Made by a program: the position numbers and the translations under genes
NCBI RefSeq assembly: GCF_000317145.1
Contig: NC_019697.1
Coordinates: 6,189,889 to 6,253,888, forward strand
Length of the DNA stretch: 64,000 bases
Reading direction: 5' to 3'
Source: Chamaesiphon minutus PCC 6605
GTDB lineage: Bacteria; Cyanobacteriota; Cyanobacteriia; Cyanobacteriales; Chamaesiphonaceae
The notes under the pieces: model-generated
The model's input: only the letters and a program-made list of their open reading frames with translations
The model's database searches: none
What the model was told of the DNA's origin: nothing
In this document: piece by piece, positions 40,796 to 43,792 of the stretch
Position numbering within the stretch: the stretch's first letter is position 1
Layout: each line of letters starts with the position of its first letter

Positions 40796-41794
40796 ATGAC
40801 ACGCTACGATGTATACGGACTAGGTAACGCGCTGCTCGATGTCGAATGTGAAGTCGAGCCAGAAGTACTGGTAGAACTAGGCATCGACAAAGGTGTGATG
40901 ACACTACTCGATGAAGCCAGTCAGAACAAAATTCTCGCTCGGCTGGGAAATGCGGCTAGCAAGCGAACGTGCGGTGGTTCTGGCGCAAATACGATCGTAG
41001 CTGTGAGTCAATTTGGCGGTAAGGCATTTTATTCTTGTAAGGTTGCCAAAGACGAACCAGGCGAATACTATCTCCAAGACTTATTAGCATCTGGCGTCGA
41101 TACCAATCTCAAAGTTCACCCGCCCGAACCCGGAATTACGGGTAAATGCCTGGTATTTGTTACTCCCGACGCCGATCGATCGATGAATACTTTCTTAGGT
41201 ATTTCTTCTAGTTTATCTGAAGTCGAATTAGTTCCAGAGGCGATCGCCAACTCTGCTTATACTTATATCGAAGGTTATTTAGTCACTGGCGAAACCAGTA
41301 AACAAGCAGCAATTACCGCCAGAGAAATGGCCGTTGCAGCAGGTCGAAAAGTCGCTTTGACCCTTTCCGACCAAAACATGGCTAAGTTCTTCAAACAGGG
41401 ACTGCTAGACATGCTCGGCCCTGGTGTAGACTTATTATTTGCCAATGACAGCGAGGCATTTGAGATGGCTGGCACTCAAGATTTAGCAACCGCGATCGAG
41501 TATTTAAAAACCATTTCCAAGACTTTTGCCCTCACTCTCGGTGCCAAAGGTTCGGTGATTTTCGACGGTCAAACATTACTTGAAATTGCCCCTTTTCCTG
41601 TTAAAGCGATCGATACCGTCGGTGCTGGCGATATGTACGCTGGTGGGGTATTGTATGGCATTACCAATGGCATGGATTGGGTCGCGGCTGGACGGCTGGG
41701 TTCGCGAGCTTCGGCGCAGTTAGTGACAATTCTAGGCGCGCGGATGGAAACAGCAAATCTGCAAGCTTTATTGAAAGAAGTTAAGGGTATTTAG
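40796..41794 (+). CDS. PfkB-family carbohydrate kinase (adenosine-kinase-like)
   Basis: From the ATG at 40796 it has 332 residues: MTRYDVYGLGNALLDVECEV, GGSGANTIVAVSQFGGKAFYSCKV and the catalytic DTVGAGDMYAGGVLYGI (anion hole and base Asp). Cyanobacterial homologues are annotated as adenosine kinase or a PfkB sugar kinase; the sequence alone does not fix the substrate. A hairpin with a 12-bp stem follows the stop. Confidence 0.9.
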   Translation: MTRYDVYGLGNALLDVECEVEPEVLVELGIDKGVMTLLDEASQNKILARLGNAASKRTCGGSGANTIVAVSQFGGKAFYSCKVAKDEPGEYYLQDLLASGVDTNLKVHPPEPGITGKCLVFVTPDADRSMNTFLGISSSLSEVELVPEAIANSAYTYIEGYLVTGETSKQAAITAREMAVAAGRKVALTLSDQNMAKFFKQGLLDMLGPGVDLLFANDSEAFEMAGTQDLATAIEYLKTISKTFALTLGAKGSVIFDGQTLLEIAPFPVKAIDTVGAGDMYAGGVLYGITNGMDWVAAGRLGSRASAQLVTILGARMETANLQALLKEVKGI

Positions 41795-42410
41795 CTCTGT
41801 AGACTGGGTCGAACTCTGGCTCGACCCAGTCTGGACAAAATCGCCTCATAAGCCAGACTTACACCATCCTCGGCACTGACAATGCGACCGACTTCTGCGG
41901 CTTTAGCTGCATAGCTGGGATTGGCGAGCAATGCACTCAATTCTTTGACAGCACGATCGATAGTGTAGTTTTCGCGGGCAATCGTCCGCGATCCTCCCAG
42001 TCGTTCGGCGCGAGCGGCATTATCCGGTTGGTCGTGGCTGTAAGGCATAATTAACGTCGGACGACCCGATCGCAATCCCTGCGCCGTCGTACCGATGCCG
42101 CCTTGATGGACGATCGCTGCCGCACGCGCAAAGAGTTGGGAATATGGGGCATAATCGATCGCCATTAACTCTGGTGGCAGATTTTCTGGTGGCGATCCAT
42201 CATCTTGGCCACCATTTCCGGATCGTCAACGTTCATGAAATCTTCCCCCAGCGGCTGAAATTCAAATCCCACTGCTTCGATCGCGGCTTGATAGTCTTTA
42301 ATCGTCACAAATACAATCTCGTGACCCCGATCTCGCAATCCTAACCCCAGTGCAATATAGGGATGGAGATCGCCCAGCGAACCCAAGGTCGTCAACAAAA
42401 TTCGACTCAT
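41791..42410 (-). pseudogene. glycosyltransferase (UGT/GT-1 type) with internal deletion
   Basis: The 5' piece (42410 down to 42165) encodes the N-terminus MSRILLTTLGSLGDLHPYIAL...GHEIVFVT and stops. The 3' piece (to 41791) encodes the C-terminal donor-binding end APYSQLFARAAAIVHQGGIGTTAQGLRSGRPTLIMPYSHDQPDNA. An intact enzyme has about 420 residues, so roughly 200 are missing, and the two parts are in different frames. At the junction TCTGGTGGC occurs twice in 19 bp (round 42170-42195), which could mark the deletion. The remnant is probably inactive. Confidence 0.8.
41801..41832. terminator. hairpin between convergent genes
   Basis: AGACTGGGTCGA (41801-41812) pairs with TCGACCCAGTCT (41821-41832) across an 8-base loop. 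It begins 6 bp after the kinase stop and lies within the 3' end of the convergent glycosyltransferase pseudogene. No T run follows, so termination is only likely. Confidence 0.5.
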
Positions 42411-42643: not shown

Positions 42644-42679
42644 AATCCACAATCCGCAATCGAATGGCAGGAGTAAATC

Positions 42680-43162
42680 ATGACCCAACTCGATCGACAA
42701 CCTACCGATAAGACCGATCGCTCGCAGACTCCCGTTACCGTACCAAAACGCACAAGTCGCCATCGGTGGGCGTGGCTGAACAATTTCTTGTATCTGTTTC
42801 CGACAGTAGGATTGGGTACCGTCGCGCTGTGTATTGGTTTAGCCGTGCTAAATCCAGTTGCCATGAACGATCCGGCCGATCCATTTGCGACACCCGAACA
42901 TCTACTCCCCGAGTGGTATCTGCTCCCCGTATATCAGCTCGTGCGGCTGATACCCTACAAGATCGTGGGGATCGTGACGATGGTGGCATTTGCGACGGGA
43001 TTGTTACTGTTACCCATCATTGAAAACCTCGTGCGGTTCGATCCGCGCTTGCGGCGGGGGGTATCGATCGCGATTTTCTCATTTAGTACGATCGTGACGC
43101 TGTGGCTGGGCTTTGGGGCGCGGTTGCCGATCGAAGATACGTTTTCACTAGGTCTGTTTTAG
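42680..43162 (+). CDS. divergent PetD-like cytochrome b C-terminal-domain protein
   Basis: The 160 residues match subunit IV of the cytochrome b6f complex: LFPTVGLGTVALCIGLAVLNP, then the Qo-site PEWY (77-80) in HLLPEWYLLPVYQLVRLIPYKIVG, IENLVRFDPRLRRGVSI and a final helix. Three membrane segments are expected. It differs strongly from canonical PetD, has a 30-residue hydrophilic N-terminal extension, and precedes rather than follows its PetB-like partner. Its stop overlaps the partner's AGGAGG. It is probably a paralogue of the main petBD genes, which are not in this window. Confidence 0.85.
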   Translation: MTQLDRQPTDKTDRSQTPVTVPKRTSRHRWAWLNNFLYLFPTVGLGTVALCIGLAVLNPVAMNDPADPFATPEHLLPEWYLLPVYQLVRLIPYKIVGIVTMVAFATGLLLLPIIENLVRFDPRLRRGVSIAIFSFSTIVTLWLGFGARLPIEDTFSLGLF

Positions 43163-43174
43163 GAGGTTGAACCG

Positions 43175-43792
43175 ATGATAAAAAATACTACAGTAAGGCT
43201 GCAACAACTAGCGACCATCATCGCCGTGTCCATTCTCTCGCTCGTACTTACTGCGGCGATTTCTGGCTTGTTACTGGCGTTTTACTACGAGCCGAGTGCG
43301 GGTGCTGCTTATAATTCACTCAAACAGATCGATACCCGAATCAATTTTGGCTGGTTGATCCTGACGGTGCATCACTTAGCCGGAAATGGCTTTTTGATTT
43401 TGGCATTGATTCAAATCATCGTGATGTTTTTTGGCGAGCAATTTCGTCCGGCGTGGATCGTCGCTTGGGTGAGTGGAATTTTATTAACGCTCAATGCTGT
43501 GGGTTTGGGGTGGACATCAATGATTCTCGATTGGTCGCAGCAGGGCTTCTGGCGGTTTAAAATCGAGCTAGGGACGATCTCCGCTATCCCTCTGATCGGC
43601 CCGACTCTGAGCACCATTCTGACTGGCGGCGAGGCGATCTCTACCGAAACAATCGTTCACCTTTATACTTTACACAGTTACGTTTTGTCGATCGTCGCGA
43701 TCGGGTTATCGATTTTCCATCTCGCTGGATTATCGGTTCAAGAGCAAGAAATCGAGACAGAGATCGCCCCCGAACTCGATCCACCAGCCTAG
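43175..43792 (+). CDS. divergent PetB-like cytochrome b N-terminal-domain protein
   Basis: The 205 residues align with cytochrome b6: FYYEPSAGAAYNSLKQIDTRINFGWLI, VHHLAGNGFLI, FWRFKIELGTISAIPLIGPTLSTIL and LYTLHSYVLSIVAIGLSIFHL. Heme-ligand positions are His66, His167 and His182, but the fourth (His100 of PetB) is Gln80. There is no cysteine anywhere, so the covalent heme c-n site is missing. A good AGGAGG precedes the ATG, and it is co-transcribed with the PetD-like gene. A role in quinol or quinone electron transfer is inferred. Confidence 0.85.
   Translation: MIKNTTVRLQQLATIIAVSILSLVLTAAISGLLLAFYYEPSAGAAYNSLKQIDTRINFGWLILTVHHLAGNGFLILALIQIIVMFFGEQFRPAWIVAWVSGILLTLNAVGLGWTSMILDWSQQGFWRFKIELGTISAIPLIGPTLSTILTGGEAISTETIVHLYTLHSYVLSIVAIGLSIFHLAGLSVQEQEIETEIAPELDPPA

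Follow-up and report, generated by a model that had tools for sequence, protein, structure and literature searches.

A cyanobacterial cytochrome b6 paralogue family lacking a bH heme ligand, and its PetD-like partner in Chamaesiphon

Bis-histidine coordination at both b-heme sites (His86/His187 and His100/His202 in the numbering of cytochrome b6, which is used below for alignment columns) was seen in each of the 26 cytochromes b used for comparison, once two very divergent loci were set aside. The nearest described departures from this pattern are engineered mutants of bacterial cytochrome bc1, in which the histidine ligand of heme bH was replaced (H212N, H212K), the change to asparagine being known as a 'heme bH knock-out' (PMC4807273). 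In the PetB-like protein described here, one axial histidine of bH is likewise replaced by a non-histidine residue. However, the bc1 mutants are single laboratory changes, whereas the change in the PetB-like protein is natural, affects the ligand on helix B instead and is accompanied by wide remodelling. A cytochrome b split over two proteins is likewise seen in the ExtP/ExtQ b-type cytochromes of selenite/tellurite operons (NF040969, NF040970). ExtP gives the joint best NCBIfam score for the PetB-like protein (111.7 bits), but membership of ExtP/ExtQ was rejected given that the scores fall far under the cut-offs (111.7 of 290 and 20 of 150 bits), and no NCBIfam model names the protein at its cut-off. 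A literature search found no description of a PetB paralogue family, although one could exist in subscription journals, which are mostly outside the coverage.

The petD-like/petB-like locus of Chamaesiphon minutus

The locus lies in a 64,000-nucleotide stretch of the 6.76 Mb genome of Chamaesiphon minutus PCC 6605 (contig C1, 6189889-6253888), hereafter the window. A PetD-like gene (160 aa; window positions 42680-43162) is followed on the same forward strand by a PetB-like gene (205 aa; 43175-43792). An earlier note on this DNA had described a reversed petD-petB-like pair with an intact PEWY motif, and both reading frames are indeed found there, 12 bases apart. Direct reading of the sequence reveals a ribosome-binding-like AGGAG ahead of the PetD-like start (42664-42679) and an AGGAGG within the intergenic gap ahead of the PetB-like start (43163-43174), such that ribosome sites ahead of both frames are plausible. 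On the reverse strand beside the pair (41791-42410), two open reading frames resemble the beginning and end of a single glycosyltransferase that lacks its middle, probably a pseudogene, and C. polymorphus carries a remnant of the same end part (L054, 2176-2370).

The PetB-like protein matches Pfam PF00033 (E 6.5e-27). Alignment to cytochrome b6 places His66, His167 and His182 on His86, His187 and His202, and Gln80 on the bH ligand His100; the protein contains no cysteine. These assignments and the Pfam, NCBIfam and PDB comparisons agree with the earlier note, as does the host's own canonical PetB (C1:5517898-5518563), which retains Cys35 and all four heme histidines. Canonical petB-petD occurs at one locus in this genome.

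Distribution, ligand conservation and ancestry of the PetB-like family

The matches from a search of 390 cyanobacterial genomes fell into two well-separated sets: ordinary PetB, which is about 30% identical (E of roughly 1e-25 to 1e-29), and a set with 48-63% identity (E <1e-54), which constitutes the PetB-like family. By a count from the match list, the family is present in about 79 of the 390 genomes, two of which carry two copies. A scan of named genomes gave 226 relatives, of which 80 were kept, all cyanobacterial (Leptolyngbya-type, Nostocales, Chroococcidiopsis-type, Pleurocapsa-type, Microcoleus, Okeania and others). The plasmid-borne relatives are just ordinary cytochromes b, with about 22-31% identity.

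The bH ligand is lacking throughout the family. Of 109 distinct members, 102 have Gln at position 80, six have Glu and one has Ala, and none has His, so that no member possesses two bis-histidine sites; an isolated mutation or an error of sequencing at Gln80 was rejected on the same count. The remaining ligands are nearly constant, with His66 in 109/109 members, His167 in 106 (Asn in three) and His182 in 108 (Asn in one). Thus, the earlier observation of three kept histidines stands for the Chamaesiphon protein but does not extend to the whole family. The aligned members shown have no Cys at the Cys35 column. The three changes of the p-side ligand His167 to Asn (motif YTINSY) are in Nostoc-type members (L096 9974-10618, L108 9974-10633, L136 4298-4897). 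One genome (G419) has two copies (L157 4619-5365, L158 4420-5115), of which one carries Ala and one Glu at position 80. Three members have open frames of about 300 aa (L046 446-1432, L047 9415-10308, L048 9481-10398), with some 80-115 extra residues ahead of the first helix and putative start codons, and the frame in L047 is directly preceded by a PadR-type regulator gene.

The ancestry of the family has been examined in a tree that also included canonical PetB, cytochromes b from non-photosynthetic lineages of the same phylum and, from other bacteria and one archaeon, plasmid-borne cytochromes b. The PetB-like proteins form one group (support 100/100) with a stem length of 3.1 changes per site, apart from canonical PetB and from the other Rieske/cytb cytochromes b, and do not group with cyanobacterial PetB. 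The exact root of the clade is uncertain because the stem is so long. Nevertheless, given that the clade spans cyanobacteria, a recent duplication of the Chamaesiphon canonical PetB was rejected, and the PetB-like proteins are not a recent offshoot of it. The dN/dS values among three Chamaesiphon genomes are 0.07-0.21 for the PetB-like and 0.10-0.19 for the PetD-like gene; both are under purifying selection, and a decaying pseudogene was rejected as the frames are also conserved in relatives. Neither of the refuting conditions named in the earlier note, His at position 80 in homologues or loss of the reading frames in close relatives, was found, which supports a second, separately conserved cytochrome-b6-type protein, and it is close to certain that the family is a distinct, conserved cytochrome b6 paralogue. 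A non-photosynthetic relative (G486) carries two adjacent, very divergent cytochrome b genes (L204 1391-2521 and 3034-4371), one of which has Arg aligned at the bH ligand position in a weak alignment.

Changes on the n and p sides of the PetB-like protein

A single-chain AlphaFold2 model of the PetB-like protein (pLDDT 93) adopts the four-helix cytochrome b6 fold. VIA-align places its residues 1-194 on residues 25-214 of cytochrome b6 (2e74_A) with a Z-score of 20.6, and b6 chains are the best matches. Residues 1-24 of cytochrome b6, the first n-side stretch and helix, have no counterpart. The likeness to PetB thus comprises the predicted fold, the helix plan, the equivalents of His86, His187 and His202, Gly51, the cd1 motif W-x-Q-x-G-Y/F-W and about 30% identity. 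In the comparison with the 26 other cytochromes b, the PetB-like protein has kept Gly51, Tyr58, Pro60, Gly79, His86, Trp118, Gly121, Leu138, Trp140, Gln142, Trp146, Pro159, His187 and His202, and has lost Gly37, Ala90, Ser91, His100, Arg103, Gly135, Tyr136, Pro139, Arg182 and Pro192. Also lost is the n-side bc loop (108-115) with K111, P113, Arg114 and E115, Arg114 being present in 26/26 of the others, and the canonical C-terminal R207/K208 and Cys35 are gone.

The lost residues are concentrated on the n side (Cys35, His100, Gly37, Arg103, Arg114, R207/K208 and the first helix), and most positions that are conserved elsewhere at the bH site and the n-side bc loop have disappeared. The p side is kept in large part, with the heme-contact Gly135 changed to Ala or Ser, Arg83 mostly lost, Pro139 mostly replaced by Asp and Arg182 by His. 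Furthermore, the family differs from PetB in its shorter N-terminus and in invariants of its own, namely G70, L78, W94, W113, R127, E131 and S168 in the 26-cytochrome comparison, together with N71; W94, R127 and E131 occur in 109/109 members and W113 in 108.

The PetB-like protein is best explained as an ancient, neofunctionalised cytochrome b6 paralogue that retained the four-helix fold and the p-side bis-histidine pair (His66/His167). Given that this pair is kept, one b heme is probably bound on the lumenal or periplasmic side. The n-side half appears to have been lost with the bH ligand (Gln80), the heme c-n cysteine, the n-side arginines and the first n-side helix, and most likely there is neither a bis-histidine bH heme nor quinone reduction on the n side. 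The H212N precedent taken with the lost n-side residues would leave no more than one ordinary b heme and would exclude a quinone reductase on the n side, and without the latter there would be no Q-cycle. A p-side single-heme cytochrome b6 paralogue that lacks the n-side quinone reductase half and a Q-cycle is accordingly a reading with about an even chance of being correct. That the family is a widespread natural 'half' cytochrome b6, which would carry out quinol or electron-transfer chemistry on one side, with no Q-cycle, in roughly one in five cyanobacteria, is a tentative proposal whose chance falls slightly short of even. The p-side heme is not certain, because Gly135, Arg83, Pro139 and Arg182 are changed and three Nostoc-type members have Asn instead of His167, and the same four changes leave the p-side quinol site unproven. 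The 'quinol-handling' protein with 'one normal b heme' put forward earlier may prove correct within these bounds.

Simple heme loss would not explain the near-invariant His182 at the n-side site, which keeps a five-coordinate heme thinkable. The n-side heme would then persist as a high-spin b heme held by His182 alone, with Gln80 near its open face, and would react directly with quinone, O2 or NO in place of heme c-n. The retention of His182 (108/109) and mostly of Gly101 after the partner ligand changed to Gln, Glu or Ala is in keeping with such a heme, as is the preference for Gln and Glu over other residues at position 80. However, some members have Ala at position 80 or Val at position 101, Gly37 and the n-side arginines conserved elsewhere are gone, and Asn in place of the bH ligand abolishes the heme in bc1 (PMC4807273), and we consider a five-coordinate heme unlikely.

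A non-catalytic paralogue, with residual heme or none, could act in assembly or regulation, or take the place of PetB in the b6f complex, or cap it there, as a structural stand-in. This would fit a protein that occurs alone in most species beside a canonical b6f complex, its very long stem branch, its patchy spread over about 20% of genomes and the few members without His167. The new invariants on a redox-type scaffold (W94, R127, E131 and W113) and the near-invariant histidines suggest instead a chemical function, which makes a non-catalytic role improbable.

The p-side single-heme protein, if such it is, could plausibly shuttle electrons between the quinone pool and a soluble carrier, e.g., plastocyanin or cytochrome c6, or alternatively serve next to the b6f complex as a subunit with a redox-sensing or modulating role. 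The family offers a natural experiment on the capabilities of a cytochrome b deprived of its n-side half, since the bH ligand and the c-n cysteine have been given up while the fold and the other histidines are under purifying selection. It also represents a candidate electron-transport component in cyanobacteria such as Nostoc and the Leptolyngbya-type group, some of which are genetically tractable.

The PetD-like partner and the gene neighbourhood

The PetD-like protein resembles subunit IV (PetD) of the b6f complex, with 48-55% identity to canonical PetD, a TIGR01156 (subunit IV) score of 155.4 bits against a cut-off of 127.05, and PEWY in all three orthologues. In subunit IV, the N-terminus and the loop between the last two helices both lie on the n side. 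Both stretches, GHNYYGEPAWPND at the N-terminus and NKFQNPFRRP in the loop of the canonical protein, are replaced in the PetD-like protein, whose changes crowd on the n side (about 25 of 40 in residues 2-33 and 113-129). In a midpoint-rooted tree, it falls on a long, separate branch outside the canonical PetD crown, and a recent duplication of the Chamaesiphon canonical PetD is thus not supported.

The gene is found in C. minutus, C. polymorphus and Chamaesiphon CAN_BIN19, always directly 5' of the PetB-like gene and with a short gap, the reverse of the canonical petB-petD order; the pair is 94-96% identical to that of C. polymorphus CCALA 037. No orthologue was detected in 389 other cyanobacterial genomes, and the partner was not found in 59 other genomes carrying the PetB-like gene. 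Elsewhere in the genus and family, a more distantly related PetB-like gene occurs with no PetD-like gene. A dedicated petD-petB pair, as the earlier note had it, is therefore confined to Chamaesiphon. There, the PEWY-bearing PetD-like protein, probably encoded in the same operon, would likely complete the p-side quinol pocket; in other species, the PetB-like protein may use canonical PetD or act alone.

For Chamaesiphon only, the two proteins might instead form an alternative b6f-type complex that shares cytochrome f and recruits an extra Rieske protein. The adjacent genes with a short gap in three genomes, the kept PEWY and several Rieske-type genes in the host genome (open frames of 168-205 aa) are compatible with such a complex. 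Against these stand the single cytochrome f gene of the genome, the altered n-side heme site and the absence of a Rieske gene from the window, which had been noted earlier and holds, the nearest match being at C1:6058141. The Rieske distance is a weak test, as the canonical petC-petA of the host is likewise unlinked to petB. On balance, an alternative complex seems very unlikely.

In most genomes, the PetB-like gene adjoins no other cytochrome-complex gene, and most species have no second PetD, Rieske or cytochrome f gene beside it. Its flanking genes in Nostocales and certain other groups encode an alpha/beta hydrolase (same strand, 50/80 loci) and a cation/proton antiporter (opposite strand, 43/80). 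In Nostocales, psbV, petE (plastocyanin) and a gene for a petJ-type cytochrome c6 also precede it at a distance of a few genes. All of these names were assigned by reading sequences rather than by family search. The antiporter or hydrolase linkage recurs beyond Nostocales, and part of the gene order is therefore old. This neighbourhood is suggestive of an electron-transport role for the PetB-like protein, although the psbV-petE-petJ arrangement, found in Nostocales only, could be mere retention of an old gene order.

Three genomes (G025, G054 and G419) carry, in addition to an ordinary PetD, an extra PetD-type gene near an AraC-type regulator gene (L143 5070-5552, L144 4881-5138 and L146 4735-5220, respectively), the G054 copy being short. 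These were rejected as the missing partner of the PetB-like protein, as none has petB beside it, all lie near the AraC-type regulator, and the G025 and G419 copies group with canonical PetD.
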